Positions 1 through 19,560 of a stretch of 30,122 bases of DNA are shown here, piece after piece. The DNA comes from a virus. The stretch lies in IMG/VR virus record IMGVR_UViG_3300021502_000005, positions 1 through 30,122 of that record; one strand, written 5' to 3'. The first letter of the stretch is position 1. Each line of letters starts with the position of its first letter. The position numbers were made by a program, and so were the translations under genes. The notes under the pieces are model-generated. The model made no database searches. It was given only the letters and a program-made list of their open reading frames with translations, and had not been told where the DNA came from.

Positions 1-3000
1 TTTTGATAATGAAACTCCTAACTCGCCGCTTATAGCTGCCGGTGCACCCATCGCCATATTGGTTAAATTGATTGAAGCGGAAGAAATTTTAAAACCTAAA
101 TACTTTAAAACTGTTAATGATTTTAAGTTGGCGATCACATTGTCAGCAAATTCATTATTCCTAAGAATATCTTTTAATGAAGCTACCGCCTCTTTGTATT
201 CTTTTGGTTGTCTTGCAGCGTCCATGCTTCTTGCTTTTTTCGCTTTTTGGTAATCTTTATAGGTAGCTTTGTCATTGTCCTTTTTAAATTGATCCCATGT
301 CAAATCCGCACCGGTTAAAGCCTTCATTCCTTTAACAGCTATTTGTTGTTTAGCATGCCCTCCTGCTGCTGCTTCTGTTGCCATGGCAACAGCTTCAACA
401 AGGTCAGTCTCATATCCACGAACAACTTTATCGCCCACAGCATCAGACCTGCCTATCATTCTTGCTCTTGACCCATGCCCCTTTAATGCAGCTTCATATT
501 GCTTCATAAACATATCGGCAAAAACAGCGTCAAAATCTTCGTTGGCGTTTACCTGCTCAAGCACTTTATTAATCACTTTTTCCTGCGCTAAAAGAGGTGC
601 TAATTGCTGAAATAAATCTTCTGATAATTGCCCTGATTGTGTTACCTCTGTTTTGTATCCAGTACGGTTTAATTTTTCTTGATATTTTCGTGCAAAAGCC
701 TTTGTTTTGAAAAATTGCATTTCAGCCGGAAGCCCGGGTTTAGAACCAAAAACTTTCCACATACCTGATTTTCTGATACGTGGGAAATAATGTCCCTGAA
801 GGTTACCCATGCGAGCCATTGCAACTTTTAAGCTAATCTCTTTAACCTTACCATCAACAACAGTTTTTATTTTAGGGACTGGTTGTCCTGCAAGATTAGC
901 CATCTTTATAATATCCTGCATGCCTTTGGCATAATGCTTGTATAGATTCCGCATCATTGTACGGTAATTTATAAGAGCTTCCTTCCCTTCAGGTGTGAAC
1001 TTTGTCTGGTCTGCTTCTAAAAGGTGAGCGTGTCTCCATGCTGCATCTTCAGAAAACATTGATTCCACTACAACGCCTTTAGTGTTTATAATATCAAAAT
1101 CGTCATCGTTATTTTTTCTTACTTTAAAACTTATTCCACCTATATCACGTTTTACCAAATAATTATTAAGGCGTTTATACTCAAGTTTGTTTCTCTTTTT
1201 TAGTTGAGTTAATGGTTCAAATAAAGAGTTCCCTTCGTTGTCATTTCCTCTTAACTCGTTTTGCTTCATGTATTTATGTTCGCCAAGTTTTCTGAATACT
1301 CCGTACAACCTTTCGTATGCACCGCCGAGTCGTTTAGCATTATACATGGTCGTGCCAAGCAAATGTTCAATATGCGTGAGTTGTTTCCTTTCGTCCTTCG
1401 CAAGCTTACCCCAATTCTTTTTGTTGCCGAGAACCATGTCTGATACTTGCTGAAAGAGTTTATCTTCACCTGGTACAATATCATCTTTTTTGGTTTGGTA
1501 GTTGGCATCTGGTTCAGCCTCTTTGGTTTCAAACTGGATGTCTTCTTTAGCCTCTACGCTAAAACTCGTACCATCACCCTTTCGGATTATCCACTGGTCT
1601 TCCGGTATGCCTTGAGCTTCGTATGGGAATTGTTCACGGCGTTGTTCGGCTGTTAGTTTTGCACGATCTGAAGCGTCTCTGGATTCTATCTCACCCAAGA
1701 GAGATTTGTATAATTTATGACTTTTTTCTCGGATGCCTACGCCATGCTCACCTTCTATTTCTTGGTATGCAGCTGACAAAGAATTACGCTCGGACATTAA
1801 TTTATCATAAGCAGGAGTCCCTACAGCTTTTGTTAATTCTTTATTGAGAACGCCTATCTTATCCATTATGGCTTCTCTTTGTGCATAAAGCTTTTTCGCA
1901 AACATATTCGCGGAACCACCACGGGCAAAACCTTCAAGTCCCTGAATTGAATGTTGAACCTCATGCAAAAGGTATTTTTTCAGGTTCTTCCACTTAGGGG
2001 ACTTATTGTCTTTAGCCCACGAACCCAAGCTCAAAGTTTTATTTGTTTCATCGTAAAAAGCGACTGTATTTACACCAGATATGTTAAAGGTGGTATTCTT
2101 TAATTCAGGGTAAGCTTTATACAATTCCGGATGATCAAGCATGTTGCTTATTTTAGGGTATTGGTCTTCTCCAAACTCACCTCTTGCGGCAGCTAACCAT
2201 TGACTGGTCGGTTTGATCCTTACCCCGCTATCATCTATCTCGAATTTCCAAGCGCCTTCTTTAGATTTGAGCCAACCGGTATCACGCCATACTTTCTTTT
2301 TGTCAACGCCTTCAGCAAGCATCTTCTGCGCATCGGCTAAAGCCCCTTTGTCGGCTCCTATGGCTTTTTCGCCTGCCATTTCAAACAACGGCATACCCTC
2401 AGAAAGAGCAGCTTGCCGTAACTGTGGCGTTATGGTGAAGGATTGGTTAGTTATTGATTGTTGTATCCGTTCAAGTTTGCCCCCAAACAGTTCAGCGACA
2501 CCGGCGCTTCCCCTCGCAATAGCATCGCTAAAAGATGTCCCTGCCTCCATTTCTTTCTGTAACGATCTCAATCCTCTTTCTATCTGCGCCCTATTAACAG
2601 CAAACATTTGACGCTCTCCGGTTATAGGACTTTCAAAGATATCTGGAACGCCTTTTCGGGCAACAGTAAGAGCTTTTTTCACATCTTCTATCGTATAGGT
2701 AGCGCCAACATATTTTGGCTTTGATTGCCAGCCTGTCGTATTTATTTCAACCGTTCCTGTTTTCGCACCCCATTTCTTACCAAATTTCTTTAGGAATTGG
2801 GGTATCATTTTATCATACAAATTAAATGCCCATTCACCGCCTACCTTTGAATCAAGATCAGTTAAAGAACGTAACCTATTAACAGGTTTTATTGCCATCA
2901 GCCTTTCCGCAAGCTCTTTTCCGATATGTTGATCTAAGTCTTCTGGCATTATCCCTGTTTGCTTAATAGCTTCGTTGCCGTCAAGGTCATACCCCACCAA

Positions 3001-6000
3001 ATTAGACCCAGAATAATGAACTTCGCTTAAATACTTACTCAAATCATACCGATCAGCAGTTTGCTGACCCGAAATCCAACTTGCCTTGTCAAAGCCTTGC
3101 TCGGCTGCCATGCGAATGAGCCTTTTCAACCCTATCTCAATCGCATTTTTTTGAGCAAAAAGTGGCATCCCTTTTTGTTGTCCCGGTAATGGTTTTTGAA
3201 TTTCTTCAAGAAATAAAATTTTATCACCGTTTGCGGCAACCCTTTCATTTATACGCATCCGTACTATTGGATTTTTTACATCCGAATATTCAGAATGCCC
3301 ATCTTCCCACGAATAGTTTTTAGCACTTGGCATAGTAACGAAAAACTCACGGTAGTTTTCTTTTTCGCCTTCGAGTTGGTATTCAGAGAATTTGGTGTTG
3401 CCAACAACACCACTATTTTCAACGGCTCCATCAATATCCCACTCATCGATCTCGTCTTGCGTCGCAAAAGGTAAATTATCCCACTCCAAAGGTTTGTCTA
3501 TTTCTAATCCATTTTCCTCTGCAAGATCTTCGTCTGGAAAAATAATTCCTCCTGCTTCAAATTTTGCCTTATTATGAAAAAACTGGTATCCGCCTGTATC
3601 ATCCCATGCTATCCTCCATGTTGTTAGCGTATCTGTGTCTTTCTCAACCTCTTCAACAACAACCTGATTTTCTTTAAGCAGTTCAACAAGTTCATCCCGA
3701 CCAACACTCTTCTTACCTTCAAGCATTTCTTCGATATTCATCCATTCAAGTTCAGCAGCTTTGACCCCAGGTTGCTTTTTGAGCCAGTTCATTACAGAAG
3801 AAGCTTGCATCTTAGCAGGCATTTTTGTTTCTACTGTTTTTATTACCTGTGAATAGAATCTGGCTGCAGTTTGTTCAAAAGCCATAGCCGGAACAGCACC
3901 CCCAACTCGACCAGCAATTTTCTGTTCTGCAATCTTCCCAGTTTCCATTTTACGGGCAACGCCTCTACTGGTAGTAACCATAAGATTAACCATAGCATCA
4001 AAGAAGTCTCCAATCTTTTGCAGAATACGTCCTATGCGTGTATCACGTGCATATGCTCGGCTTTTTGCAGCGTCGCCTATAAAAGATGCCTCCATTTCTT
4101 CGGTAACGTCTCCCTTTATCCCACTGCGCCTGATAGCTCTTTTGATTGCCCTAACATCGCCTTCTGACACAACACCAAAGCTCTTGAATAAATGCCATTG
4201 TTCATGTGCAACGGAGCCTATGTCAGCTTTTACCCCAGCACCGCCAGTTTTAAACCAGATTTGTTTAGGCTCCGGTAAGAATGCGCCTGTTCTTATTCGT
4301 TCATCTGTAAGGCCGATCCGGTCATTGATTGAATCCATTTCAAGGATCGTATGTTTTGGGAAGCCTTTAAATTTAAACCACAGGTTCCCTTGCTTGTCTT
4401 GACCTGTTGTAACGTTTTCCATTTTGGCAAAAGTTTCGCTTATATCTTTTGATGTTAAGGGAATGGCTTTGGCTTTGCCGGCCTCAAAATAAATAGCCCC
4501 TCCAGTAACAGGCATGGAACCTTGCTCATGCAATGACTGACCGCCCTGAATCACGTCTAAAAGCTTCATACCGGCAGCATTCGCAAACTTTTGAAGATTC
4601 GCAGCATTTATTTTTGGCAAGGTAGTATCAGGCTCAAAAGCAACTATCGTAACAGCGTTCGCACCTTCAGCTTGTTTTAAAATCCTCTTAGCTGCTATCC
4701 CTCGAAGCTTATCATAATTCTCAACTCGCATTACCCCGGTAACAGCGTGTTTGTTATCTAAGAAAAGTAGCCCCCCTTGCGGAAGCAACTCTTCACCTAT
4801 TCTAAGTATTTGTCCCGGACTTGCTATAACTGGTAAATTTTCGCCTTTTGTTTTAAACATCCTGACAAACATCGGTACTCGAACTGTAGCTTTCCCTGTT
4901 TTCGGAAGCGGATAAGCTTTTAAATCAATACTGGATACATATTCACCCTTTCCAACAGCAATTATTTCAGGAGCCGTAATTTTTGTTCCGGCCAGAAGAG
5001 ATAAAAGTTGTTCAGAAACATTTTTGTCCCCTTGTGATAGCACTGCGTTTCCACTTGGATGATTGTGGACTAAAATTATTTCCCTTACGCCTTTAGTATT
5101 CATCGCCTGCCCGGCGATGATTCCCACTTGTGCCGGTGCAGCCGCAGTAGTGCCGACACTGAATCTATGCGCTCCTAATATTTTCCCTTCTTCACCCAAA
5201 AGTAACGCAACAAGCCTTTCTTGTGGGAATTTCGATAAATTATAATCAGCGAATGCGGCCGCATCACCTGAATTTTTTATATGGGATGTATGAGATAAAT
5301 ACCTTCGCCTGGCGTTGGATACGACTTTCGGCCATTTTGGTTTACCCATTTTGCCTTTGGGAGGTGCAACCCTTCCGGTTGGCTCGGATATCTCACCAGC
5401 CTTTTTTTCGGTTTCTTTTTCATATGTGGCTCCTACTTGCTTTTTTATTTCTGCAACAACATCCGGATACGCTGCCCAATTATCAAATCTTTGGATCTTT
5501 GTATCGAGTTCTCTCACTTTATTATTGATAGCCTGTACATCACCCGGGTTAATGCCATATTTATCAAGAAGCTCTTTGTGTTTTACTTTATCTAACTTGC
5601 TGACAGACTTTAGTAATGCCCGCTCTTGCTTTAACTCTGAACCCATACTGGTCGCGGCCCCGGCCATTTTGTCAGCTTCGATTTGCCAGTTTTCATTTTC
5701 TCCAAATAGGTTCGCTTGTCCGCTTGTAGCTTTTGGCACTATCGTTTTAACCGCCTGGAGGTAGTTACCCACTTCATCAGCAGTGTGTTGGTCAGCGTAT
5801 TTCATGCCTACATTTTGCAACTCATTATTGTTCGGCACGGCTTTGGCTATTGCTATGGCTTTCTTCCCGTTGATATCTCCGTTTCTATATGCGTAATAGA
5901 GGTCATTTCCGGCATTTGTTCCAATAGTGAACCCATCTTGCCCTTTAACCCTTGATAAAAGCCCTCGGCTGGATGCTTGCTCTTCTGTGGTTTCTGTTCC

Positions 6001-8880
6001 TCTGAAATATGCGGCATAATCTCTCACGCTCCCTTGCTCGTCTCTTATGTTTGATTCAGCATCAAAAATAGCTGCTTGCTCGGCTGTGAACCCTTCAGAT
6101 TCTTTCAGCACTTGCGCCGGGATTGTTTCTTCGCCTTGCCTTTGTGCAAGATCAAACCTGTGCCGGCCAGTGATTAATTCTAAATCACCATTTTCTCTTT
6201 CCCATAAAACTACAGGTGGTGTCCCTACTCTTTCGTACTCACCCTCTATTGGGGTTACGACACCTTTTGCGTCAGCACCTTCCTTGAATTGCGGAACATC
6301 TTTTGATAGTTTTATTTGTTCAATAGGGATTTCTTTTGTTGCAATATCTTTTATTTTTTCAGATGTTTTCTGCTGGCTTGGTTTTATTTTTGTTAACTCT
6401 GGGTAATCGAGATGTGATTTTATTTTACCTTCATTAATAGCTTGCTTAACAGATTGTTTGTGAGTTTGAATAATTGATGGATTCAAAATTACAACTTGAG
6501 GCTCACTCGTCCCAATATCTTTTTTAATGTCAAAGCCATCGACTCCAATATCTATAAACTTTTGTTTCGCATCGTTTGCCTGTTTAAAATAATCTTGATA
6601 AGATGGGTCTTCTATAGGAATATCATAAGCGTCAAACCATGTAGCTTGTTCCGCATCTTCGAAATCCTTAAACCCTGCTTTTTGCGCTATTTTGTCTGCA
6701 TCTTCCTCTGAATTTATTTCCACAACATTGGCATCTTTTTTAATAATCACAGGAACACTTTTATCATACCCGACAGCCCTCGCTTTTTTTGCCCAGTCTT
6801 TGTCTAACCAATGTTTATCCTTTCCAGCGTTCGATAAATAAATATTATTGGGTCCGAGTTGGCCATAAGAATATTTTCGGTGTTCTAATGGCGCATCTGC
6901 CCGAAAACCCTCTCCCTCTATTTTAAGCAATGACTTTTCATCTGTTCCATGATGGTATTTTGATATTTTATTAAATTCATCTTTTCCCATTTCCCAAGGT
7001 TCTATTGCCTCCGTACCCTCAACCGCCCATTCGGGAACAACTCCTTTAAATCCTGGAGGCTTTCCCCCTCGTGCTGCCCGATCCCCTGAAATTTCACGTT
7101 CAGTCTTGCTTTTTCTAAAGGCTTCGTTATATAACTGTGCCTTGACTTTTCCGTCCATTGACTCTTGTATTTTACCCTCTTCCTTTAATGCAACGGCCTT
7201 GGCATCCTGATCATCCATAAGCTTCTGAAGTTTAGGCGCTTGTTCAAGTGTTGCTTGCTTCCCAAAGGCTATGGCCTCTTCTGACTTTTTAAATTCCGGT
7301 ATTTTGGATATCGGGGTAATAGACTTTTCGGTTTCGGTTCGCACAGCTTCTACATCTGCATCAGTCGGCTCTACCTTTAAGCTTGCTTTCTTTATATATT
7401 TATTAAGATAGTCCGCATTATTTTCAGCGTCTAACGGATCTTTCTCAAACTGGTTTTCATTTTCCGTTAAATCTGTTTCCTTCTCAACAAACATGCCCCG
7501 GACTTGTTCGGCCAGTTTTGTATCTTGCTCGGCCACTCTTTCGATAACCGGCTCCATCATTTCGGAAGTTAAATCACCGGTTTCAATAGCTTTAGCCAGC
7601 CTCCCGGATTTGATATCATCTTTTATTTGGTTGGTTTCATTAGAAGGCACTTGCGCAACGATATTATCTGGCAAGAACTGCTCCTGATCGCCATCCCCCA
7701 ACAAAGGCTCCCCCATTTCTTTTATTTTGGCAAGAGACTTTCCTACTGCAACTTCCCCTGCACTTTGCGGGATAGACATCATGGATTCCATTACTGCATC
7801 CGTTAAGCTTGCATCAAGCCCGGCTGCTACAGAGCCGCCATATTCTCCCGTTCCCTCTCCTATCATATCAAGGCCAACGGCTGTACCGTGCAACCCTGCG
7901 CTTTTAAACCCTTTAGGCATAGCTTTAGACGCTGCTTTTATTCCAGCTTTCTGAACTGAACTGGCGAAGGCTTTGTCTGACAGAAATGCTGCTTTTACAG
8001 CGACATCATCAAGAGGGTTAATGCCTTTGGCTTTTAATGCACTTGAGATTGCTGCCTGAGATGCTTTATTCGCTGCCTTATAAAAAGGAGAGAATATTAA
8101 CCGTGTTGCGCCCATTGTGGCGACATCAACACCGGTTATAACCCCGCCTTTTATGGCCCCTTTTTCTAAAACGTCCTCTCTGCCGTATTCCCCTTTTGCA
8201 AATTGCTCTTGAGCTATCCCACCGGTTTCTATAGCTATATTCCCAAACAATAAGCCTACTATTCCGCCAGCCATTGCCACTATAGGGTTTCCGGCAGATA
8301 GAGCAGCCCCTATTTTAGCCCCTGTAAACATACTCCCGAGGATAACGCCTGAATTAGGAAGTTGAGCCGCGACTTCATGTATAGCCCCTTTCGGGTTCTC
8401 CCATGCTGCACCGGCAACGTTCGCAATAGCCTGCATTACAGAATCATCCCCAGCTTCTTCCTTCCGTGTCTGAAGATTTTGCATAAAAGCTTGCTGTGCT
8501 TGTGTCTTTGGAATTTGTGCTGCTGATAGTGAAACCTGTTCGGCTTCTCTTGGGTCGTCTGTCGCTACATTCCATGCAGTCCTAAGACTTGCGCCTGTTT
8601 GCTTGACACCACCGACCAAGGCGCTGCTTATGCCGGTTTTTTGTAATGCTTTCCGCCCCTCTTCGATATAATCGTTGTCCGTCATGCCTTCAAAATATCG
8701 TTCAGGCCGGAACAAAGAGCTACTTTTTATCTTGTTTTCAACCGCACGATGACCGGCCTCCAAAAATTGCTGGTTTGGATTAACGGCAGCAGGAGCAGCA
8801 GAAACGGCAGGTGCTACAGGTGTTAAATTTTGTTGTTCCAGTTTTGATTTTGGCTTTATTTCGTAGTCTAATAATCCCAT
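1..8880 (-). CDS. Giant polyvalent internal virion/ejection protein (C-terminus beyond window)
   Basis: A single frame stays open for all 2,960 codons from ATG at 8880 to base 1 and continues past the edge. Visible in order: a Gly/Ala-rich hydrophobic stretch (about residues 173-225); an ADP-ribosyltransferase-like domain (about 640-805, Y642, HGT at 644-646, late E793); a ParB-like domain (about 851-1000, GRHRF at 905-909); a RadC/JAB domain (about 1190-1320) with H1272, H1274, P1275, S1276, G1277, S1282, D1285; zincin 1 (H1559-E-Q-W-H1563, later E1597); a conserved phage domain with WISGQQTADRYDLSK from W1935; zincin 2 (H2306-E-V-Q-H2310, later E2397/E2399); and a helical region with HYFPRIR near 2690. 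This mix is typical of the 'polyvalent proteins' described for phages and conjugative elements, which are thought to enter the cell with the DNA and protect it. The start has a weak ribosome site two bases after the upstream stop, suggesting translational coupling. Activities of individual domains are inferred from motifs. Confidence 0.9.
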   Translation of the reverse strand, partial: MGLLDYEIKPKSKLEQQNLTPVAPAVSAAPAAVNPNQQFLEAGHRAVENKIKSSSLFRPERYFEGMTDNDYIEEGRKALQKTGISSALVGGVKQTGASLRTAWNVATDDPREAEQVSLSAAQIPKTQAQQAFMQNLQTRKEEAGDDSVMQAIANVAGAAWENPKGAIHEVAAQLPNSGVILGSMFTGAKIGAALSAGNPIVAMAGGIVGLLFGNIAIETGGIAQEQFAKGEYGREDVLEKGAIKGGVITGVDVATMGATRLIFSPFYKAANKASQAAISSALKAKGINPLDDVAVKAAFLSDKAFASSVQKAGIKAASKAMPKGFKSAGLHGTAVGLDMIGEGTGEYGGSVAAGLDASLTDAVMESMMSIPQSAGEVAVGKSLAKIKEMGEPLLGDGDQEQFLPDNIVAQVPSNETNQIKDDIKSGRLAKAIETGDLTSEMMEPVIERVAEQDTKLAEQVRGMFVEKETDLTENENQFEKDPLDAENNADYLNKYIKKASLKVEPTDADVEAVRTETEKSITPISKIPEFKKSEEAIAFGKQATLEQAPKLQKLMDDQDAKAVALKEEGKIQESMDGKVKAQLYNEAFRKSKTEREISGDRAARGGKPPGFKGVVPEWAVEGTEAIEPWEMGKDEFNKISKYHHGTDEKSLLKIEGEGFRADAPLEHRKYSYGQLGPNNIYLSNAGKDKHWLDKDWAKKARAVGYDKSVPVIIKKDANVVEINSEEDADKIAQKAGFKDFEDAEQATWFDAYDIPIEDPSYQDYFKQANDAKQKFIDIGVDGFDIKKDIGTSEPQVVILNPSIIQTHKQSVKQAINEGKIKSHLDYPELTKIKPSQQKTSEKIKDIATKEIPIEQIKLSKDVPQFKEGADAKGVVTPIEGEYERVGTPPVVLWERENGDLELITGRHRFDLAQRQGEETIPAQVLKESEGFTAEQAAIFDAESNIRDEQGSVRDYAAYFRGTETTEEQASSRGLLSRVKGQDGFTIGTNAGNDLYYAYRNGDINGKKAIAIAKAVPNNNELQNVGMKYADQHTADEVGNYLQAVKTIVPKATSGQANLFGENENWQIEADKMAGAATSMGSELKQERALLKSVSKLDKVKHKELLDKYGINPGDVQAINNKVRELDTKIQRFDNWAAYPDVVAEIKKQVGATYEKETEKKAGEISEPTGRVAPPKGKMGKPKWPKVVSNARRRYLSHTSHIKNSGDAAAFADYNLSKFPQERLVALLLGEEGKILGAHRFSVGTTAAAPAQVGIIAGQAMNTKGVREIILVHNHPSGNAVLSQGDKNVSEQLLSLLAGTKITAPEIIAVGKGEYVSSIDLKAYPLPKTGKATVRVPMFVRMFKTKGENLPVIASPGQILRIGEELLPQGGLLFLDNKHAVTGVMRVENYDKLRGIAAKRILKQAEGANAVTIVAFEPDTTLPKINAANLQKFANAAGMKLLDVIQGGQSLHEQGSMPVTGGAIYFEAGKAKAIPLTSKDISETFAKMENVTTGQDKQGNLWFKFKGFPKHTILEMDSINDRIGLTDERIRTGAFLPEPKQIWFKTGGAGVKADIGSVAHEQWHLFKSFGVVSEGDVRAIKRAIRRSGIKGDVTEEMEASFIGDAAKSRAYARDTRIGRILQKIGDFFDAMVNLMVTTSRGVARKMETGKIAEQKIAGRVGGAVPAMAFEQTAARFYSQVIKTVETKMPAKMQASSVMNWLKKQPGVKAAELEWMNIEEMLEGKKSVGRDELVELLKENQVVVEEVEKDTDTLTTWRIAWDDTGGYQFFHNKAKFEAGGIIFPDEDLAEENGLEIDKPLEWDNLPFATQDEIDEWDIDGAVENSGVVGNTKFSEYQLEGEKENYREFFVTMPSAKNYSWEDGHSEYSDVKNPIVRMRINERVAANGDKILFLEEIQKPLPGQQKGMPLFAQKNAIEIGLKRLIRMAAEQGFDKASWISGQQTADRYDLSKYLSEVHYSGSNLVGYDLDGNEAIKQTGIMPEDLDQHIGKELAERLMAIKPVNRLRSLTDLDSKVGGEWAFNLYDKMIPQFLKKFGKKWGAKTGTVEINTTGWQSKPKYVGATYTIEDVKKALTVARKGVPDIFESPITGERQMFAVNRAQIERGLRSLQKEMEAGTSFSDAIARGSAGVAELFGGKLERIQQSITNQSFTITPQLRQAALSEGMPLFEMAGEKAIGADKGALADAQKMLAEGVDKKKVWRDTGWLKSKEGAWKFEIDDSGVRIKPTSQWLAAARGEFGEDQYPKISNMLDHPELYKAYPELKNTTFNISGVNTVAFYDETNKTLSLGSWAKDNKSPKWKNLKKYLLHEVQHSIQGLEGFARGGSANMFAKKLYAQREAIMDKIGVLNKELTKAVGTPAYDKLMSERNSLSAAYQEIEGEHGVGIREKSHKLYKSLLGEIESRDASDRAKLTAEQRREQFPYEAQGIPEDQWIIRKGDGTSFSVEAKEDIQFETKEAEPDANYQTKKDDIVPGEDKLFQQVSDMVLGNKKNWGKLAKDERKQLTHIEHLLGTTMYNAKRLGGAYERLYGVFRKLGEHKYMKQNELRGNDNEGNSLFEPLTQLKKRNKLEYKRLNNYLVKRDIGGISFKVRKNNDDDFDIINTKGVVVESMFSEDAAWRHAHLLEADQTKFTPEGKEALINYRTMMRNLYKHYAKGMQDIIKMANLAGQPVPKIKTVVDGKVKEISLKVAMARMGNLQGHYFPRIRKSGMWKVFGSKPGLPAEMQFFKTKAFARKYQEKLNRTGYKTEVTQSGQLSEDLFQQLAPLLAQEKVINKVLEQVNANEDFDAVFADMFMKQYEAALKGHGSRARMIGRSDAVGDKVVRGYETDLVEAVAMATEAAAGGHAKQQIAVKGMKALTGADLTWDQFKKDNDKATYKDYQKAKKARSMDAARQPKEYKEAVASLKDILRNNEFADNVIANLKSLTVLKYLGFKISSASINLTNMAMGAPAAISGELGVSLSK

Positions 8881-8882
8881 AA

Positions 8883-9869
8883 TTATCTACCCAGTCGCTC
8901 TCTTGACTCACGTTGTCCGGCCAATGCCCTACCGACTAAATCAGTGTATGTTCTCCATCCTTTTTTGGCTGCACCGCTGTACAGCCTTCCAGTCGCCTTC
9001 CAATTTTCAGTACCAAGACCATATTTACTAAGAGACCTACCCATTCGCTGAAAACCTTGTTGCGGGGTCGTCGCCGCCCAATCTTCCCATGAATGTCGTC
9101 TTGCGTTTGTAGGTGGTGCTATCGTTGCTGTAGGTGCGGCCATTTGGCTTGCCATCTGTGCCGGACGGTGAGCTTGCCACATTTCATCATCTGGCAGAAA
9201 CGGTTGGTTTGATGATTCTGCTGTTGCTGCTATCTGAGCCGCTCGCGGGGAAAAGTTTGCCCTTCCCATCATCTCTTGGGTAGCCATGCTTTCGGTGATC
9301 TTGCTATTTCCACCAAAATCGTACTGTTTCCCACCTTCCGTTATCACACGGCCTCTGCCTTGCAAGCTATCAGGTTGCGCCGTTGCTGCTGCTGAAGGCA
9401 TGGCCTCTTCTCCACTTGCATATCTTTCCATCCAATCGGCAATTTCAGCTTCTTGATTTTGTCGTATCTCTTCGCTGGCTAATGGCTCCCCTGTCTTTGG
9501 ATTAACCCATCCTCCCAATTCTGTTTTTTCTTCCCACGCTGGTTGCAACTTAGCATATATATCTCTTCGCATATTGGCTGTTTGCAAGGGAGTAAACCCG
9601 CCTGCGGCTTTGGCTTTTGTGCCTGTTGCCTTAGTATATCTTGATCCACCAGAAGTATCAACCCCGGTTTGCCCATATCTTTGTTGATATCGAGAACCTT
9701 CCCCCGCTTCCATCATGGCACGTCTTCTGGTTGCACCGGTTTGGCGACGTTCAGTCAAAGCCGTTTCGTGTCGTCTTTCCGTGGCAGCGATTTGGTCTTC
9801 TCTTTTCCGTGCCTTATCTCTCGCTCTTTTATATTCACTCGTCATTTCACCGGTTTGTTTTCTTGCCAT
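8883..9869 (-). CDS. Putative internal virion protein, basic N-terminus
   Basis: 328 residues, unrecognised by family. The first 60 residues are very rich in Arg, Lys and Glu (EYKRARDKARKRE, then RRHETALTERRQ) and probably helical. The middle is low in complexity and rich in Ala, Gln and Met. The C-terminus is again basic (GQRESRERLGR). There is no signal peptide or membrane segment. The start is clear, with AAAGGAG shortly before ATG. It sits between a 733-residue tail protein and the giant polyvalent protein, the place where short-tailed phages often keep internal or ejected proteins, so an internal virion role is likely but only from context. Confidence 0.8.
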   Translation of the reverse strand: MARKQTGEMTSEYKRARDKARKREDQIAATERRHETALTERRQTGATRRRAMMEAGEGSRYQQRYGQTGVDTSGGSRYTKATGTKAKAAGGFTPLQTANMRRDIYAKLQPAWEEKTELGGWVNPKTGEPLASEEIRQNQEAEIADWMERYASGEEAMPSAAATAQPDSLQGRGRVITEGGKQYDFGGNSKITESMATQEMMGRANFSPRAAQIAATAESSNQPFLPDDEMWQAHRPAQMASQMAAPTATIAPPTNARRHSWEDWAATTPQQGFQRMGRSLSKYGLGTENWKATGRLYSGAAKKGWRTYTDLVGRALAGQRESRERLGR

Positions 9870-9870
9870 T

Positions 9871-12072
9871 TTAAACTCCTTTTATTTCATTTTCTATCGC
9901 AAACCCACACGAAACACTAGCTTGCAGATTGCTTAACGGCCCATTCTTTTCGCAATAAGCAAGAAATTTTTCTTTAATCCATGCTACTTCTGCCCCTGAG
10001 CTAATAATGTTGCTGTCAGTCACTCTATAGCCCCCCATGTCTACTCTTTCTGTTACAACTTCAGTCTTATATAAAGTTACAAACGCATTGTACTCTGCCC
10101 CAGAAACAGTATCAACCCACCATATTCCTGACATGTCGCCAGATTGGTGAGCGGGGCCGTCTACCCTTGTATGGGTATAGCTTGCTGTAATAATTATGTT
10201 ATATAACCTAATAGAAAAGTCAGCGTTTATTAGCGCCGCGCATACCGTAGTAGCAAGCAGCACTTTATTATAGTATACAGTAGTAGCATAGTAGTTTTCA
10301 ATTTCGTCCCCCCCCCCACTTTGGTAAAGAGTTACGGCATCCCATTGGACACTCTCAGTGACTATTTCTTTCTCTTGTGCATTAGAATAAACGGTCGTGG
10401 TTGTGCTCGATGCCGTAGACCCCACCCCCCCGGCATAAAAATAAGTAGTTTCGGCATAAGTTTTATACATAGTAGGGATGTTACGGGCTTGATCATATTG
10501 CGGGACATTGAGTTCTATCATATGCTCCGGGATAGTAAAAACTATTGGTCTTATTGAATCGTAGCGAGAACCGTGCCCAGTGGTGTAAGCTCCATACATT
10601 GTCAATGAATAAGTGCTAATATCTACAGTATGAGTATATATAGGCACAACGAAATCTTCTCTATTGCCATATTCTACACTATGTGTTTTTGTAACGCTGG
10701 CAGATGACGAGTCTATGAGATAGCCTTTTGCACCGCCACCTCCGCCCATTACATATGACCCCCCCCCGCTGTGGGTAACATCTTGCGTATAGGTGTTAGG
10801 CTTAGTAGAAATTAGCACAGGGCGATATTCCCCAGCCATCTCATGCCCAGGCAATTTTCTATCCTCATTAATTTTAAGTTCTATTAGCGAATCTAAATCA
10901 AAATAGGCTTTCGTTCGGTGGGTATCCTGAAAATACCCTGGCCGATATTCGTCTCGCTGCCACACAGAAAAGCGCAATACCTCGGCAGGGCATCTTATAG
11001 TTGCTGCACCTTCAAACCCTATTAATGTGTACCCTGTATCTGTTTTTAGAATTATTGCTTTATACTTATGCCTGGGCAAATAACTTGCCATTCGCATTCT
11101 GTCTTTATAACTCAAGGGTGACTGGCAATTCATATGAACATCTACAATTATTTGCCCAGTACCGTAGTCAAATATTAATTCTTTAGCAAGGAAATCAACA
11201 CTAAAGAAAAACTTTGTATTCCCATAGTACATCTCCTGCACATCAGGTTTTTGATGAAGCTCCAAAATTTGTATGCAATCTTTTTCTATTTCTTCCAAAC
11301 TTACTTGCTTATATGTTGTAACATCGGTTGCAGTTTCATCGGGGATTGGCTTCTCTTTATCGGCACCCAGCGCTATTATAGCGTAAGTTCCGTCAATATC
11401 TCCAGGCTCGCCCCGCGCAATCGGAGGACTCAGCTTCGCCGAGCAAGAGAAACATGAGCCTGCTGCTGCCCCTGCGCAAGATCCTTCCTTAAAGGCAGGA
11501 ATCTTTGGGTAAAATCGCCCTCGGCCAGTATAGCTCCCAAGGCAAAACAATAAAACCTTATCGTCAACCTCATAAATACCAAAATCCATCGCATGGCATA
11601 GCAAAGGCTTCTCTTCCTTTCCCCTGCAAAGATCAACTAAATATCTCCTTCCTGTGTATTCAGCTTCAAACAAATAAAACTTTTTTTTTACTATCCTATT
11701 ATAATAGTACCACATTCCACCAACATAAAAATCGTACTCGCCCTCCAATAACTCAGGGCCTATAACCTCTAAAATTTTCCCCTCCGTGAAGTACGTAGTG
11801 CACCAGCAATATTCCTCTATAATTATAACATCTTTTTCAAACACTGCCAACAACAACGGTGGAACATAAATGTTAATGGTATCAATACCAAAAACAGAAG
11901 TGCAGACTACCCGAATGCCACTTGCAAACTCAACAATTCTTTTATTCTGCATCAACCCTTGAAAACGCATGGCATTCCGCAAAATTTCAAGCTGAGCAAA
12001 ACCAAAGTGATTCAGTCGTTTTGCGTTGTATTTATCACCGGTATGCCTATATTGCACATAAGATGCTGACAT
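9871..12072 (-). CDS. Large tail/virion protein with homopolymeric G tracts
   Basis: 733 residues, no family recognised. It is rich in Tyr, Thr, Val and Gly with alternating beta-strand-like segments and no membrane span. A Gly/Ser/Pro-rich linker (near residues 200-225, containing KLSPPIARGEPGDIDG) splits an N-terminal part from the rest. The last 300 residues hold short Gly clusters (HSGGGS, MGGGGGAKG, YQSGGGD) written with runs of G up to ten bases long, and an A9 run lies near codon 128. A one-base change in any run would truncate or replace the C-terminus. Position after the beta-rich tail genes suggests an exposed tail or receptor-binding component. It begins just after the upstream stop with a weak ribosome site, so translation is probably coupled. 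Confidence 0.8.
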   Translation of the reverse strand: MSASYVQYRHTGDKYNAKRLNHFGFAQLEILRNAMRFQGLMQNKRIVEFASGIRVVCTSVFGIDTINIYVPPLLLAVFEKDVIIIEEYCWCTTYFTEGKILEVIGPELLEGEYDFYVGGMWYYYNRIVKKKFYLFEAEYTGRRYLVDLCRGKEEKPLLCHAMDFGIYEVDDKVLLFCLGSYTGRGRFYPKIPAFKEGSCAGAAAGSCFSCSAKLSPPIARGEPGDIDGTYAIIALGADKEKPIPDETATDVTTYKQVSLEEIEKDCIQILELHQKPDVQEMYYGNTKFFFSVDFLAKELIFDYGTGQIIVDVHMNCQSPLSYKDRMRMASYLPRHKYKAIILKTDTGYTLIGFEGAATIRCPAEVLRFSVWQRDEYRPGYFQDTHRTKAYFDLDSLIELKINEDRKLPGHEMAGEYRPVLISTKPNTYTQDVTHSGGGSYVMGGGGGAKGYLIDSSSASVTKTHSVEYGNREDFVVPIYTHTVDISTYSLTMYGAYTTGHGSRYDSIRPIVFTIPEHMIELNVPQYDQARNIPTMYKTYAETTYFYAGGVGSTASSTTTTVYSNAQEKEIVTESVQWDAVTLYQSGGGDEIENYYATTVYYNKVLLATTVCAALINADFSIRLYNIIITASYTHTRVDGPAHQSGDMSGIWWVDTVSGAEYNAFVTLYKTEVVTERVDMGGYRVTDSNIISSGAEVAWIKEKFLAYCEKNGPLSNLQASVSCGFAIENEIKGV
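10308..10317 (-). repeat. G10 homopolymer inside the 733-residue tail gene
   Basis: Ten consecutive C on the plus strand, G on the coding strand, at about codons 585-588 (YQSGGGD). Runs this long are prone to slipped-strand change. The assembled length keeps the frame open. Confidence 0.95.
10425..10431 (-). repeat. G7 homopolymer inside the 733-residue tail gene
   Basis: Seven consecutive G on the coding strand near codon 548 (FYAGGVGS). A further run of four G follows after a single T at 10420-10423. Confidence 0.95.
10759..10767 (-). repeat. G9 homopolymer inside the 733-residue tail gene
   Basis: Nine consecutive G on the coding strand near codon 436 (THSGGGS), a few residues before a second glycine cluster (MGGGGGAKG) that is encoded with mixed codons. 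Confidence 0.95.
11681..11689 (-). repeat. A9 homopolymer inside the 733-residue tail gene
   Basis: Nine consecutive A on the coding strand encode the Lys run in IVKKKFYLF near codon 128. It is a possible site of polymerase or replication slippage in the same gene as the G tracts. Confidence 0.9.
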
Positions 12073-12074
12073 TG

Positions 12075-13442
12075 TTAAGTTTCCGCATGTGGATAGGTAT
12101 GAGTTTCGCTAAGCCTTGCCGAGTTAGTAAGTGTCTCGTTATGGCTGTAGCCCATGCTAACTCCTCTTGAAAGAGAATCGCTCAAGCTTGCGCTTGCATT
12201 TACCGAAGACATAGCGCTGGCTGCTAATTGGGACGAAATATTTGCCATAGCCTTTTGACCTTCTATCGTTAACCCGGTGGAGCCAAGGTAGCCCTGCAAT
12301 GTTAATTCAGCTTCTTTCAAAGAGAGTGTTGTCTGATTATTGGCCTGTTCTATTTTTGCTTTGTATTCTTGAATTTGTGCATCCAGCGTAATTGCCATCG
12401 CCTTGGAGTCGGCTTCGTACCCAGCAATTTTATAACCATAAACTTTGGCGATATTTTCTATAATACTAAGCTCAGTGGTAACATTTATTTTGTAAGCTTC
12501 AATATCACTTTGATAAACACTAACTAAATTTTGGTTGGATTGCGTAACAATATCAGCCTTTAATTTTTCGGTTTCTACCTCTAAGGATGATCCTTTAATT
12601 CTATTAACGTAAGCCTCAACTTTTGTGGTATAAACTCTAAGGATAACCTCGGCAGCAGCTTTTGCAGCGTCTAGCAACCTGTTTGCTGAAGAATTAAATA
12701 ATTCTTTTTCCTGCCCTTCTAACTGAATACTTGAGCTGATGATAAACTGTGAATGTTCTTTGGCCAACCGAGCTTGCTCAATAGTAATTTCATAGTTTAG
12801 CTGTTGGTTATTCCTATTAATTTCTTTGGTTATTTCTAATAGCCTCCCGCTTAACATGCCAGGCGGAATTTCATAACCCCTTGCTGCAAAATAATTTTCT
12901 GTTTCAGCGTACAATCTTTCATTCTCTAACTCTGTCCGGTTCCTTGCTCTCTCCCATAATGCCGATTCTGTTTCTGCTCCTAACCCTGTTCCTCCTTCAG
13001 CGAGAAAGTCTTTGACTACAGCAATTAGAGCGGTGTTTAAATCACTTGAATATCCTGTCTCATCATAGTTAAAATCAACATCCGGTTCTACTATATCGTA
13101 TGCCGGAATGGTTACAGTTGGAACAGTGACCGTAGAAAAAACAGGTCTGCTTGGCGCGGTAATAGTTTCAGGTGTGAGGTCTGCGTCACTTGGAGCCTCT
13201 GGCCGCAATGATGTAAGATCATTATCAATGGCAGACTCTTGAAAAGCATACGAAATATCCGATGTAGGAGGTGAGATATCAGTGAACAAAGCCGCCAATG
13301 TGTCTAAATAAAACTTAGCCGTGGTCACTGCGTCTGATGCGTAATCCTGTGCGCTTGTGAATTTGTCCTCGACAAGCTGCCCGGCTTCGTTTGCCCCAAT
13401 GCTATAAGATGTGTGCGGGACTCGACCTACATTGATCGCCAT
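12075..13442 (-). CDS. Coiled-coil virion structural protein
   Basis: 455 residues. The N-terminal 50 residues look helical and are followed by a Pro/Asp/Thr-rich linker (about 55-120). A long, almost wholly alpha-helical coiled-coil region fills the rest, with ERARNRTELENERLYAETE and, a little later, YEIPPGMLSGRLLEIT. The combination 'FAARG(Y/F)xxPPGxLxGRLLEI' followed by an N/Q-rich helix is, from memory, common in uncharacterised virion proteins of short-tailed phages. The C-terminus is Ser/Ala-rich. ATG is preceded by GAGGGAG. It lies directly upstream of the 733-residue protein with a two-base gap. A tail-fibre adaptor or internal tail component is plausible; the precise role is unknown. 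Confidence 0.85.
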   Translation of the reverse strand: MAINVGRVPHTSYSIGANEAGQLVEDKFTSAQDYASDAVTTAKFYLDTLAALFTDISPPTSDISYAFQESAIDNDLTSLRPEAPSDADLTPETITAPSRPVFSTVTVPTVTIPAYDIVEPDVDFNYDETGYSSDLNTALIAVVKDFLAEGGTGLGAETESALWERARNRTELENERLYAETENYFAARGYEIPPGMLSGRLLEITKEINRNNQQLNYEITIEQARLAKEHSQFIISSSIQLEGQEKELFNSSANRLLDAAKAAAEVILRVYTTKVEAYVNRIKGSSLEVETEKLKADIVTQSNQNLVSVYQSDIEAYKINVTTELSIIENIAKVYGYKIAGYEADSKAMAITLDAQIQEYKAKIEQANNQTTLSLKEAELTLQGYLGSTGLTIEGQKAMANISSQLAASAMSSVNASASLSDSLSRGVSMGYSHNETLTNSARLSETHTYPHAET

Positions 13443-13445
13443 GGC

Positions 13446-13925
13446 TTAACTCCCTCTTGGTTTACTGTTTAAAATTGTAGGATCGACATGGATAGAGTCT
13501 ATACTAAAATCACATCCTGATGTATTTGCAATTTTAATTTCCCAATATCTTCCTTTTTGGCTTCTTCTTCCTGAAACTTCGCCACTTCCTTGCCTGCTCG
13601 ATGATAGCGCCGGTGTAAGTCTGTAAGTTTCTGTGTTACCTTCGTCTGTTTTAACTTCAAACTGGATGCTGCCGGTAGATTCATACCCAACATGAAATTT
13701 TCTAATCCTTTTTTGATTAGGTATTCCCCAGTCGCTTCTTGGAAATTCACCAAAAGCGTCGATACTTGAGCCATCATCATTGCCAGCTTCATCCAGTTCA
13801 TAAATCCCATCTTCACTAAAACCTATATGGATATTTCCGATTTTAGCGAAAGAATTGAAATTGTAATTAACATACTGGCTAATGGCCAAATTTTTCAAAT
13901 TAACTGCTAAAGTTAAGTAATCCAT
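13446..13925 (-). CDS. Hypothetical tail-associated protein, 159 aa
   Basis: A 159-residue soluble protein of mixed beta character with no recognised motif. It has a charged acidic loop (DEAGNDDGSS) and an Arg/Ser-rich segment (SSSRQGSGEVSGRRSQKGR). No signal peptide or membrane segment is seen. ATG follows the preceding stop directly (TAAATG), and only three bases separate its stop from the next start, so it belongs to the same polycistronic message as the tail genes around it. A minor virion protein is the likely role, from context alone. Confidence 0.75.
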   Translation of the reverse strand: MDYLTLAVNLKNLAISQYVNYNFNSFAKIGNIHIGFSEDGIYELDEAGNDDGSSIDAFGEFPRSDWGIPNQKRIRKFHVGYESTGSIQFEVKTDEGNTETYRLTPALSSSRQGSGEVSGRRSQKGRYWEIKIANTSGCDFSIDSIHVDPTILNSKPRGS

Positions 13926-14957
13926 TTAATACCTGCTATGCCTTAAAATTTCATCGGTGAATCTTTCGCCCACTTTGCCAGTGCCGTAACATACAATAGA
14001 TGGGAGTGTAATATCTGCGTCTGCGTCTGCTGCTGCATGCCCAGTCGCCTCTATTGTGATCAAAGGCAATTCTATATCAAGATCTCCGCTTGCCCCACGG
14101 ATACCGGTTCCGTAACACTCTAAAAGAGGAAGGTCTTCTTGCAATTCACCGGCTATCGAAACAGTTCCAGTTCCAGAACACTCTAAAAGAGGTAACGCCT
14201 CATCCCATTCTCCAAGTATCCCAATCAGCCCAGTAGCAGCGCATTCTATAAGAGGTAAAGTTATTGCTCCGGTTGCACCACCATAAGCAGATACCGTTAT
14301 TTTAGGTAACTCTATATCCAAGTTCCCGGCTACTGCAAGAGTAACAACCTCAAATGAGGGGATAGTATTCATCACAGCACTAATTCCGCTGTAAGTATAA
14401 ATAGATTTTACAACTATTGCCTCTGCTGAAGTTTCAGCAGTACTTGTAAATATGTCTTTTCCTGTATCAGGTACACCAGAGACTGCAAACTGGTTATTGG
14501 CAAGATAAATTAGCTTCCCCGTTAAAGATTGGCCAGAAGTAGCGTAAGTTCCATCCGTGAGCATTATGGTGTAGCCGAATTTCAAATTAGGGCAAACTGC
14601 TGAAAAAGTGGCACCCGCTCTTTCGATAATTTCTTCAAGATAAAACTCAGGAGTTGTCAAAACAACTGAAATTTTACCGCTCAACAAGGCTGCCCCATAG
14701 TGAAAATAAGGTGCTGTTGCTACCATTGCAGCATCGGCTGAAAATACCATTTCTCTAAAGGTTTCTTTTCCTCCAACACTGCTAACGCTGCAATCACCAA
14801 GAAAATCTATCTCTTCTGTATAAGTGACTTCCTGCCCTGCCGGAGCAACCTTGCTACTTTTACAGCCGTAATAAGAATAAAACGTCACTATCTTCTTTGC
14901 GGAAACAATTCCTGGAAGATCTGAAGTATCTATTTTTATTGTATCATAGGTAGTCAT
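13926..14957 (-). CDS. Repeat-containing beta-rich tail protein
   Basis: 343 residues. The first 210 residues show Thr/Val/Ala-rich beta strands and a Cys pair in the CKSSK and GDCSV segments. From residue 217 to 327 there are six imperfect units starting with LPxI/LPLL and ending near GTG or ATG, with starts at 217, 234, 255, 276, 297 and 318. Such regular short strands with Gly turns suggest a stacked beta structure in a fibre or tail appendage. The start overlaps the stop of the 71-residue gene by four bases (ATGA), a sign of translational coupling. Specific function is not known. Confidence 0.8.
   Translation of the reverse strand: MTTYDTIKIDTSDLPGIVSAKKIVTFYSYYGCKSSKVAPAGQEVTYTEEIDFLGDCSVSSVGGKETFREMVFSADAAMVATAPYFHYGAALLSGKISVVLTTPEFYLEEIIERAGATFSAVCPNLKFGYTIMLTDGTYATSGQSLTGKLIYLANNQFAVSGVPDTGKDIFTSTAETSAEAIVVKSIYTYSGISAVMNTIPSFEVVTLAVAGNLDIELPKITVSAYGGATGAITLPLIECAATGLIGILGEWDEALPLLECSGTGTVSIAGELQEDLPLLECYGTGIRGASGDLDIELPLITIEATGHAAADADADITLPSIVCYGTGKVGERFTDEILRHSRY
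13977..14309 (-). repeat. Six tandem imperfect 21-residue (63-bp) coding repeats
   Basis: Units read LPKITVSAYG, LPLIECAATG, LPLLECSGTG, LPLLECYGTG, LPLITIEATG and LPSIVCYGTG. The spacing is 17 residues once and then exactly 21 residues four times. Similarity is clear at protein level and partial at DNA level. Confidence 0.9.
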
Positions 14958-15169
14958 ATTCTAAAATTTCTTATTATCGTGTTACTAACTAATTCAACAA
15001 TTTTATATATACGAAAGACGAAGTGGTAACGAACTTGCATAAGCTTCTCTAATTGTTCTGCTGGCACTACTACACTATTGTAAGCAGCATAAAATGTTTC
15101 TATTTTATTCCCTCTTGTTATCTCCGGGAAAGTAGCAAAAGCCAGCATGTTCGCATCGTAGACAGCCAT
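14954..15169 (-). CDS. Small hypothetical tail-region protein, 71 aa
   Basis: 71 residues, unrecognised. The N-terminal half is neutral (AVYDANMLAFATFPEITRG) and the C-terminal half is basic and hydrophobic (FRIYKIVELVSNTIIRNFRI), possibly an amphipathic helix. Its ATG overlaps the stop of the upstream 396-residue gene (TAATG), and its own stop overlaps the next start by four bases. This tight coupling on both sides supports it as a real gene in the tail operon. It could be a small adaptor or a chaperone of its neighbours. Confidence 0.7.
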   Translation of the reverse strand: MAVYDANMLAFATFPEITRGNKIETFYAAYNSVVVPAEQLEKLMQVRYHFVFRIYKIVELVSNTIIRNFRI

Positions 15170-16359
15170 TAGAGAACCTCTCTATCCTCTTTTATAGCGA
15201 AGCTATCTTCAAGGTATCTGTAAACAGCATCGCAAATTCGATAAGTGCTTGTCCCGTCAGGATTAGTGTCCCATGTTTCAACTGTAAGGGTATCGACTGT
15301 GTTGCTATTAACTTTTCTAGTTGCCCCTGATGCCGTACCATCAACAATAAGCACCATTTTATTCTGCCATTCATTCGTAGCCCAGGTTTTTGTTGTATCA
15401 GTTAATGTAGTGTTAGTCGCACCGGAAGGTGTCCCTTGCTCAGGTTGGTTGCCTGTCTGCACCGCAAACATATCTGACATCGTAACAGCGGGACTCATTC
15501 TAATTAGTCCATTTAAGTCTAACCAGCCAATAGCCCCTTTTTTATCATAGCTGTTTACTTGGGCAGGTACTAAACCGTATTGGCCTGTTCCTGCATCAGG
15601 ATCAAGGTAAGTAGATAGTATTGCAGCAGTTGCTATTGCGTATTCTCCAATAATACCGTCCTCATCCCCAACATGGTCAAACCTGCAAAGTTCTGCGAAG
15701 TTGCTTAAAGTGCTATTGTAGCCGCCCATCATCGCTGGGCAAGGGGTTACCCCAACAAAAGCACCAGAGGCGTAATCTCTTGGCAAAGAAGTTACCTGAA
15801 TATGAGTGCTATCTACTATTGTTTGCACTTGTAGTTGGTCTCTCCCTTCAGTATCTACCCCAACGATTTGAATCTTTTGCCCTTTTGAGAACCCAGTAGA
15901 CGACGCCACTGCTAATGACACTCCAGAGCCAGTACTCGCCAGCGCTGTGGTTGTTGTAATAGTGTCGTAGAATAATTTATCCAAAAAGCCAACAAGCAGG
16001 CTTTGGTTTGCAACGAATTTTCCAATGGCAACAAAATCAGCGTTGCCCACCATAAACATTTTAGTGGCTGCATCCCATACCACTTGATCATAAGTTGTAT
16101 TGGCATAAGCTTGAGTAGTCCCAACATGGGTAGTTGCATTCCAATAAAGCCAAAGTGTAAAAGTAACAGTTGTAGTAACTCTTCGAAGCTCTAAGTAAAT
16201 ATAAGGATACCCATGAGCGCTACCATTCGTTTTGTAAACTTCGCTATCTGCATCCAGTGTATCATGGCTCGTCCAACCAGCAGCGACCATGAACGCTTGT
16301 ATATCCGTCCACCATAAGTCAGAGGTGGCATAAGTTTTATGCAAAGCTATATCAGCCAT
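15169..16359 (-). CDS. Beta-rich virion (tail) protein, 396 aa
   Basis: 396 residues. The N-terminal domain opens with DLWWTDIQAFMVAAGWTSHD and continues with many aromatic beta strands (YIYLELRRVTTTVTFTLWLY). A small beta domain follows around residues 140-205, with GVSLAVASSTGFSKGQKIQI and SLPRDYASGAFVG, a pattern I associate with phage structural proteins. A C-terminal beta segment lies around 320-375. No membrane segment is present. GGGAG precedes the ATG at good spacing. The gene sits among other beta-rich tail genes, so a tail or baseplate-like structural role is inferred. Confidence 0.85.
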   Translation of the reverse strand: MADIALHKTYATSDLWWTDIQAFMVAAGWTSHDTLDADSEVYKTNGSAHGYPYIYLELRRVTTTVTFTLWLYWNATTHVGTTQAYANTTYDQVVWDAATKMFMVGNADFVAIGKFVANQSLLVGFLDKLFYDTITTTTALASTGSGVSLAVASSTGFSKGQKIQIVGVDTEGRDQLQVQTIVDSTHIQVTSLPRDYASGAFVGVTPCPAMMGGYNSTLSNFAELCRFDHVGDEDGIIGEYAIATAAILSTYLDPDAGTGQYGLVPAQVNSYDKKGAIGWLDLNGLIRMSPAVTMSDMFAVQTGNQPEQGTPSGATNTTLTDTTKTWATNEWQNKMVLIVDGTASGATRKVNSNTVDTLTVETWDTNPDGTSTYRICDAVYRYLEDSFAIKEDREVL

Positions 16360-16375
16360 CGTTTATTCTCCCTTA

Positions 16376-16897
16376 TTACACATTTTGCAGAGTGACAGTG
16401 ATTCTAACCTTTAAAGTGTCACCATTTTCAACCGGTAATCCAGCGGTAAATTTTGCAGCTCCGTACATTACTGCACCGCCTGCTGCAACATCAGCTTTAG
16501 TGTTATTGCTCACCAACGCTGCACCGTATATTGTTGCAGTTGCAATAATAGAAAAAGCCGCAGTGCTGCTATTTGCAATACTCCCACCGGCAGCAGCATC
16601 GTCCGTCCATGTAGGCCTTGTGGTTTCACTGTACTCAGAATCGGCCTCAGTAAACCCAGGAACGGCGTATGTGTCTGTTAATAGCGGAGTGTAATCATCT
16701 ACAAAAGTTAGTGTGTACCAAGTCGGCTCGGCTGTCCCGTTTCCCAGCCCTGTTTGCAACAAATAGTTAAAGCCCTCAGTTGTAGTCACATTGTGAGTGT
16801 CCCCTTGCTTGAATAACTTGCCGCCTCTCCAAAGTTCCCACTCATAGATCGATGTTCCTTCGGCAGTTAATCCGGATGTAAACTTATTGGTGTCCAT
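16376..16897 (-). CDS. Beta-sandwich tail protein, 173 aa
   Basis: 173 residues rich in Thr, Ala, Gly and Tyr. The segment VTTTEGFNYLLQTGLGNG, then TWYTLTFVDDYTP, then a late GAALVSNNTKADVAAGG and a final GDTLKVRITVTLQ strand resembles a widespread family of small phage tail proteins of unknown exact role. AGGAG precedes the ATG. It is the third of three consecutive small beta-rich genes (155, 122 and 173 residues) that probably act together in the tail. Confidence 0.8.
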   Translation of the reverse strand: MDTNKFTSGLTAEGTSIYEWELWRGGKLFKQGDTHNVTTTEGFNYLLQTGLGNGTAEPTWYTLTFVDDYTPLLTDTYAVPGFTEADSEYSETTRPTWTDDAAAGGSIANSSTAAFSIIATATIYGAALVSNNTKADVAAGGAVMYGAAKFTAGLPVENGDTLKVRITVTLQNV

Positions 16898-16907
16898 TTA
16901 GAATCTC

Positions 16908-17276
16908 CTAAGTGGGATTATTAATCTCAATATCCCAGGTTTTATTTTTGTAAATCGAATTTACGATAACACTAGTCGAATCAGTTTCGGTAACATAGAT
17001 TAAAACGTTGGTGCTTACTTTCCCAAGTGCTAAAAATGTTATATTATTTGATGATGTTATCAATACCTCTACTTCTTGGCAGGTAATACGCCTACCGGAA
17101 ACCGCTCCTGTTCGGGGTGCACCAAAATCAACAGTGCTAATGTTGCTTGAGCCTAACGAATATAGCACTGCCTCAGCATATGTTGTCGGTGCTGTATGGC
17201 AGACCAACATAATCGTAGCATTTGTTTTTATATAGTTGAGCGCTGTGTCTATCGCGTCAGTAGATATATATTTCAT
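16908..17276 (-). CDS. Small tail structural protein, 122 aa
   Basis: 122 residues. Features that recur in homologous phage proteins, from memory, are an N-terminal helix (DTALNYIKTNATIMLVCH), the turn APTTYAEA, a central VSGRRITCQ and a final strand ending IEINNPT. It has no membrane or signal segment. The start lies three bases after the stop of the upstream gene and has only a poor ribosome site, so translation probably depends on coupling. Likely a virion protein of the tail tip or stopper region; not assigned further. Confidence 0.75.
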   Translation of the reverse strand: MKYISTDAIDTALNYIKTNATIMLVCHTAPTTYAEAVLYSLGSSNISTVDFGAPRTGAVSGRRITCQEVEVLITSSNNITFLALGKVSTNVLIYVTETDSTSVIVNSIYKNKTWDIEINNPT

Positions 17277-17279
17277 GGC

Positions 17280-17747: not shown

Positions 17748-17758
17748 TGTTTTCCTCC

Positions 17759-18652: not shown

Positions 18653-18660
18653 GATAGTCC

Positions 18661-18837: not shown

Positions 18838-18847
18838 AATAACCCTC

Positions 18848-19510: not shown

Positions 19511-19526
19511 TCCACTTCCTTTTGAA

Positions 19527-19560
19527 ATGATTGAGGCTATCTCACGACAACCTCAATCAT
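19527..19560 (-). other. Intercistronic hairpin, perfect 10-bp stem
   Basis: ATGATTGAGG at 19527-19536 and its exact reverse complement at 19551-19560 enclose a 14-base loop. The hairpin sits in the gap between the 138-residue gene and the adaptor gene, just before the adaptor ribosome site. No long T run follows, so it looks like an mRNA stability or processing element rather than a terminator. Confidence 0.75.

Follow-up and report, generated by a model that had tools for sequence, protein, structure and literature searches.

The 30,122-base linear fragment analysed here (IMG/VR record IMGVR_UViG_3300021502_000005; the window is the whole record) encodes a giant protein that, judged by its sequence, belongs to a known class, the phage-type polyvalent proteins. 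Compared with its relatives, this giant is a fixed chassis, consisting of an N-terminal region, an HExxH zincin-like metallopeptidase and a helical C-terminal domain, with payloads exchanged at two slots: slot A, between the N-terminal region and the first zincin, and slot B, between that zincin and the C-terminal domain. Several unrelated activities are combined in the one polypeptide (RadC, LPD23, a ParB fold, a GNAT fold and zincin motifs), and the occurrence of LPD23, RadC, ParB and zincin in a single chain inside a virion operon bears out the preliminary description of this DNA, which had named the product a polyvalent protein of a phage. We consider it likely that the giant is packaged in the virion and ejected through a short tail as polyvalent cargo, with swappable payloads on the chassis and a zincin that would most probably cut the chain. 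Few parts of phage biology have been tested as little as giant injected proteins.

The giant gene and its operon

The gene occupies positions 1..8880 on the minus strand, with residues 1-2960 visible; its domains are given below in window coordinates and lie on the same strand. From an ATG at 8880 the frame runs to position 1 through 2,960 codons without a stop and is open at the record end; a stop-free run of this length has a chance of ~10^-90 at this base composition, the codon-position GC bias is even along it and no frame shift is visible. The proposal of one uninterrupted frame of more than 2,960 residues that continues past the edge and encodes over 300 kDa thus stands, the visible part alone amounting to 326 kDa. 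Residue 2960 aligns to a position in the complete giants of two related loci, L002 (3,071 aa) and L012 (2,883 aa), after which these continue for ~431 residues, so that the full-length protein probably comprises ~3,390 aa.

Only 2 bases separate the giant gene from the gene upstream. The operon there (8883..29122, minus strand) encodes terminase, portal, capsid region, SU10-like adaptor, head closure, nozzle-like and structural proteins, and the giant therefore lies beside late virion genes on the same strand; the terminase and the capsid region we take to be such from reading the sequence. The SU10-type adaptor (E 1e-13), the P22-like portal and the nozzle-like protein agree, at the sequence level, with a short tail. 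By reading, two small cysteine-rich (zinc-ribbon-like) proteins are encoded at 22730-23140 and 26478-26930, between terminase/portal and the capsid region.

That the giant closes this virion or tail operon, as had been suggested, is not supported: the gene runs off the end of the record, and its counterparts in L015, L002 and L012 have further same-strand genes downstream, some of them tail-fibre-like or with a polysaccharide deacetylase domain. Pseudomonas phages AF and Epa33 and Vibrio phage 1.211 have related giants placed ahead of holin, spike or tail genes, with holin genes after the giant in both AF and Epa33 and spike genes also in AF. The last genes before the giant are syntenic with L015, and the virion genes just upstream resemble L015 genes (33-53%). 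Since these upstream genes resemble L015 while the giant resembles those of L002, L010 and L012, virion genes and cargo appear, on sequence resemblance, to have different histories. The syntenic giant of L015 (4982-14380) carries an inorganic pyrophosphatase (InPase), GGDEF and LPD38 at the same locus, cargo of a nucleotide-signalling type.

A gene placed among assembly genes might also serve assembly only, its product helping to build the tail or acting like a scaffold and then being cut up or left out of the mature virion; the presence of a zincin would suit such a role, and Iyer et al. 2017 (PMC5512222) report that P1 DdrB is cleaved before it is packaged. We regard this as very unlikely, given that an assembly protein would have little use for nucleic-acid and modification domains and that the giant gp69 of phage JC1 (4,515 aa) is abundant in mature virions, with 51 unique peptides in purified particles (PMC9144972).

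Domains of the visible protein

The conserved N-terminal region (residues 120-345; 7846..8523), traced by iterated profile search in the loci compared, contains by hydropathy one hydrophobic Gly-rich segment (residues 194-212), is common to other phage giants, mostly near their N-termini, and may have a membrane role. A search of phages with the N-terminal 480 residues gave no match. The giants of L002, L010 and L012 start, within residues 1-120, with an RNNNPGNLRY segment that is lysozyme-like by eye and has no Pfam match; the window's giant does not carry it.

Such features could be taken to mean that the giant is mainly an ejection conduit, the inner-membrane part of a DNA channel like T7 gp16 or the N-terminus of the N4 virion RNA polymerase (vRNAP), with the enzyme modules as minor passengers. 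The conserved N-terminal region with its hydrophobic segment, the lysozyme-like start (RNNNPGNL) of the three related giants, the adjoining nozzle-like genes and the insertion of the N4 vRNAP N-terminal domain into nanodiscs (PMC12633501) are all in keeping with a conduit. We nevertheless think it unlikely, as enzyme-like modules of various kinds make up most of the length and differ from one near relative to the next on a constant chassis, which suggests selection on the payload.

Slot A of the window's giant holds a segment without recognisable family, a ParB domain and a RadC domain with a following module, X. The first of these (residues 640-835; 6376..6963) had been described as an ADP-ribosyltransferase (ART)-like domain, an assignment for which no test gave support. 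No relative was found by tblastn in 50,697 phage records and no close relative in a scan of viral contigs; neither Pfam nor the ART-PolyVal profile (PF18760) matched; hhalign against ART-PolyVal gave 0.2%; and, under an HMM of 7 true ART-PolyVal members, the segment scored no better than 208 of 998 reported shuffles. The AF2 model does not resolve its fold (pLDDT mostly <50). The order of its motifs (YHHGT, NNIYLS, VDGFDI, EPQVVILNP) is ART-like by eye, so that a very divergent ART is conceivable.

Folds of the ParB and RadC domains were searched with an AF2 model of residues 620-1480. The ParB/sulfiredoxin-superfamily domain with its helical part spans residues 832-1165 (5386..6387), with the ParB_N fold at residues 847-947 and the motifs GRHRFDLA and SNIRDE, GRHR at 905 being the GxxR motif. 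The match to ParB_N in Pfam is weak (E 0.011), and the ddrB-ParB profile (PF18763) gives no match to the giant at E 0.1. The ParB-like assignment made at the outset is settled by the predicted fold, since the top Foldseek matches are the ParB-family protein Noc and ParB (Noc 7nfu, E 8e-6) and VIA superposes the domain on 7bnk with Z 10.9 and an rmsd of 2.2 over 88 aa. The giants of L012 and Vibrio phage 1.211 also have this region.

The RadC/JAB domain (residues 1201-1321; 4918..5280), likewise anticipated, is found by Pfam (PF04002, residues 1202-1317, E 3e-16, 59.9 bits against a curated cut-off of 22.1; E 3.6e-18 in a second Pfam search), and its predicted fold matches Chlorobium RadC 2qlc (Z 13.1, rmsd 3.2 over 119 aa). 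HNHPSG, the Ser and the Asp are intact, and the catalytic (JAMM) Glu of 2qlc aligns with a His in the window's giant (ILGAHRFSVGT) and likewise in L012 and L002. Directly behind it lies module X (residues 1322-1464; 4489..4917), possibly a degenerate second RadC copy. The indications are suggestive only: the order of strands and helices in its model is the same as in RadC, and hhalign against RadC gives 58% with a plasmid homologue included and 1.9% without it (controls <=0.6%).

The first zincin-like metallopeptidase (residues 1480-1665; 3886..4443; alignment of 13 members) has HEQWH at 1559-1563 and a downstream Glu in EEMEA at 1594, and both are present in all near relatives. Conservation of this HExxH...E pattern supports, at the sequence level, the zincin of the preliminary description; Pfam gives no MPTase match in the region and the AF2 model is weak there. 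Some distant giants read HExxxH instead, which Iyer et al. 2017 (PMC5512222) also describe.

Slot B begins with a module that had been overlooked. Residues 1675-2160 (2401..3858) are likely to form a divergent GNAT-like fold, an assignment that rests mainly on VIA applied to the AF2 model. This is the best-modelled domain of the giant, with pLDDT mostly near or >90 at residues 1680-1750 and 1840-2050, the GNAT core. The VIA rows listed are all GNAT-type folds, the best being the C-terminal part of ICL2 (Z 10.2, rmsd 3.3 over 143), the AtaT, KacT and TacT toxins, GCN5 and NatD; Foldseek reaches a probability of 0.97 with E no better than 0.004. The region is also the most widely shared part of the giant: 80 loci were retained from the 463 coding stretches that one scan yielded, and the family occurs in >80 loci, in giants of up to >5,600 aa. 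The analysis thus names a likely fold, GNAT-like, for a very common and unmodelled domain of phage giants; GNAT domains have also been reported in phage polyvalent proteins (Iyer et al. 2017, PMC5512222). The acetyl-CoA loop Q/RxxGxG/A is not seen in the family, which has EEIQSDWHxxGRxxGY instead, and the window's copy lacks even the family's QSDWxxxGR loop, reading EEIQKPLPGQQKGMPLF there. Because neither the RadC Glu nor the GNAT loop is conserved, both modules may be inactive.

Behind the GNAT-like module follow LPD23 (residues 2167-2222; 2215..2382; Pfam PF18838, E 1.6e-15, above cut-off, and 1.3e-19 in a second search) and the second zincin motif, HEVQHxIQxxEGFAxGG (residue 2306; 1951..1965), which Pseudomonas phages AF and Epa33 have conserved as well. 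The stretch from LPD23 to this motif has no close relatives among the viral contigs scanned.

The visible chain ends in residues 2457-2960 (1..1512). The conserved helical domain of the preliminary description corresponds, by homology to L002, to the start of the tail-700/PLxRFG domain: identity to L012, L010 and L002 is 54-56%, and the full C-terminal domains of L002 and L012 match NF032893 above cut-off. The window's giant, in which the record end cuts the domain, gives no NF032893 match.

Shared linker motifs (GxPLF, DIRYS) were considered as protease sites and set aside: GxPLF simply marks where the GNAT module stops on its C-terminal side, and DIRYS-type motifs occur about as often as expected (5 against 5.2).

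The replaced RadC Glu, the lost GNAT loop and a slot A segment without recognisable family might together point to a decaying gene, several modules having lost their catalytic residues and the protein persisting as a structural relic. To this reading we give the least credence. The frame is open over 8.9 kb with uniform codon bias; both HExxH motifs, HNHPSG and the ParB motifs are intact; and the RadC change, by comparison of the aligned proteins, is old and kept, because it is common to L012 and L002.

Fixed chassis and exchangeable payloads

The chassis and its slots emerge from comparison of the window's giant with those of L002, L010, L011 and L012. All five have the first zincin and the C-terminal domain in common, at 54-97% pairwise, the C-terminal domains of L010 and L012 being 97% identical over the part present. 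The slots differ. Slot A contains an Eco57I-type methylase and an SNF2 helicase in L010, ParB-RadC in L012, RadC in L002 and, in the window's giant, the segment without recognisable family followed by ParB and RadC-X. Slot B is empty in L010, holds a true ART-PolyVal domain in the near relative L012 and GNAT in L002, and consists of GNAT, LPD23 and zincin 2 in the window's giant. These near relatives amount to a natural experiment in which the same chassis (C-terminal domain up to 97% identical) bears different cargo in defined slots, and they let one separate the parts required for packaging and ejection from the payload, and ask whether these are cut apart by the zincin.

L010 (803-12358) and L013 (1-747) are the two ends of one record, IMGVR_UViG_3300027822_000003 (62,626 b), which divides the giant gene into 3,852 and 248 codons. 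This division over both contig ends suggests a circularly permuted, near-complete genome encoding a giant of ~4,100 aa with methylase and SNF2 helicase.

The RadC domain breaks a stated rule, as the survey of Iyer et al. 2017 (PMC5512222) placed RadC in the polyvalent proteins of conjugative elements only. Besides the window's giant, 8 of 49 related viral records encode RadC, in each case within an open frame of 2,400 to 6,200 residues, whereas in named phages each of four RadC genes looked at encodes a stand-alone protein (~150-165 aa). One locus (L048, record G031) has a single open frame of ~6,235 codons, far longer than the window's gene, with a canonical RadC (E 4e-34). Among plasmids, RadC-X is best matched (29% over residues 1201-1464) on a conjugative plasmid of Pseudomonas sp. 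KHPS1, by an ArdC-type protein read in its extended frame, with RadC, ArdC_N, MPTase-PolyVal and DUF5710 domains in a relaxase/T4SS context. On plasmid NZ_CP100552.1 (L128:5788-11220), an annotated zincin gene probably starts too late, since its frame is open for ~340 codons upstream and encodes RadC there. Plasmid searches with RadC-X of L012 and with module X alone gave no match, and a scan of genome contigs with the ParB-RadC-zincin stretch gave no relative. Going by these comparisons, RadC in a phage polyvalent protein is new, as are its homology to a conjugative-plasmid ArdC protein and the two-slot chassis; the RadC match would fit plasmid-phage exchange, which it neither dates nor directs.

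It is conceivable, though we lean against so far-reaching a reading, that the giant is a two-slot modular delivery platform in which enzyme cassettes move between phages and RadC between plasmids and phages, and in which the zincin releases each payload separately after ejection.

Proposed ejection of the giant and known systems

The reading we prefer, that of ejected multi-tool cargo, implies the following course. The giant would be made late, at the time of the head and tail proteins, and wait inside the capsid until, ahead of the DNA or along with it, it passes through the short tail into the host, in the manner proposed for N4 vRNAP and for DarB-like giants of Bcep22-type podoviruses. Packaging and translocation would depend on a chassis made up of the N-terminal region and the helical C-terminal (tail-700/PLxRFG) domain, with the middle of the protein carrying swappable payloads in slots A and B. 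The HExxH zincin, always found between the slots, would most likely cut the chain, either before ejection inside the capsid or once in the cell, and so free the modules, which would then act on presumed host targets. The preliminary description had held that the protein must pass the portal-adaptor-nozzle channel or be cut first. The short tail it assumed agrees with the operon; the paradox it raised is not a new one, since N4 ejects a vRNAP of ~3,500 residues through a ~35 A channel (PMC12633501, preprint) and, as Iyer et al. 2017 (PMC5512222) note, packages it uncut even though it has a zincin domain, so that size alone does not force cleavage.

The likeness to N4 vRNAP (gp50) drawn here is one of layout: no RNA polymerase module was found in the window's giant, and what the two have in common is their size, an N-terminal membrane-type region, an HExxH domain with a large helical C-terminal domain behind it and, as proposed for the giant, short-tail ejection. 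P1 DarB, a 250-kDa virion protein, is likewise believed to enter the cell (PMC9024508). JC1 gp69, DarB-like and from a Bcep22-type podovirus, has the same kind of position, coming last in a short-tailed phage's virion module and ahead of the lysis genes, a comparison made by annotation only. Used as a link to the JC1, AF, Vibrio 1.211 and Epa33 records, tail-700 matched only Epa33. The 495-kDa PLxRFG protein of Klebsiella Lastavirus (PMC9505181) is likened by description, not by sequence.

The KHPS1 plasmid protein aligns through RadC and the following segment, and differs in its ArdC_N domain, absent from the window's giant, and in its relaxase/T4SS context. With the phage-type polyvalent proteins of Iyer et al. 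2017 (PMC5512222) the giant shares many unrelated domains in one late-operon protein, among them zincin, ParB-superfamily and LPD domains; unlike in those, no ART was found and the ParB domain falls off the ddrB-ParB model. From the PLxRFG/tail-700 giants (NF032893) of Pseudomonas Epa33/F116-like phages it differs in its payload set and in a record that stops inside the domain, yet it has, via L002 and L012, the same C-terminal chassis domain, and with Epa33 it also has in common the LPD23 and HExxH region and the late-operon position of the giant.
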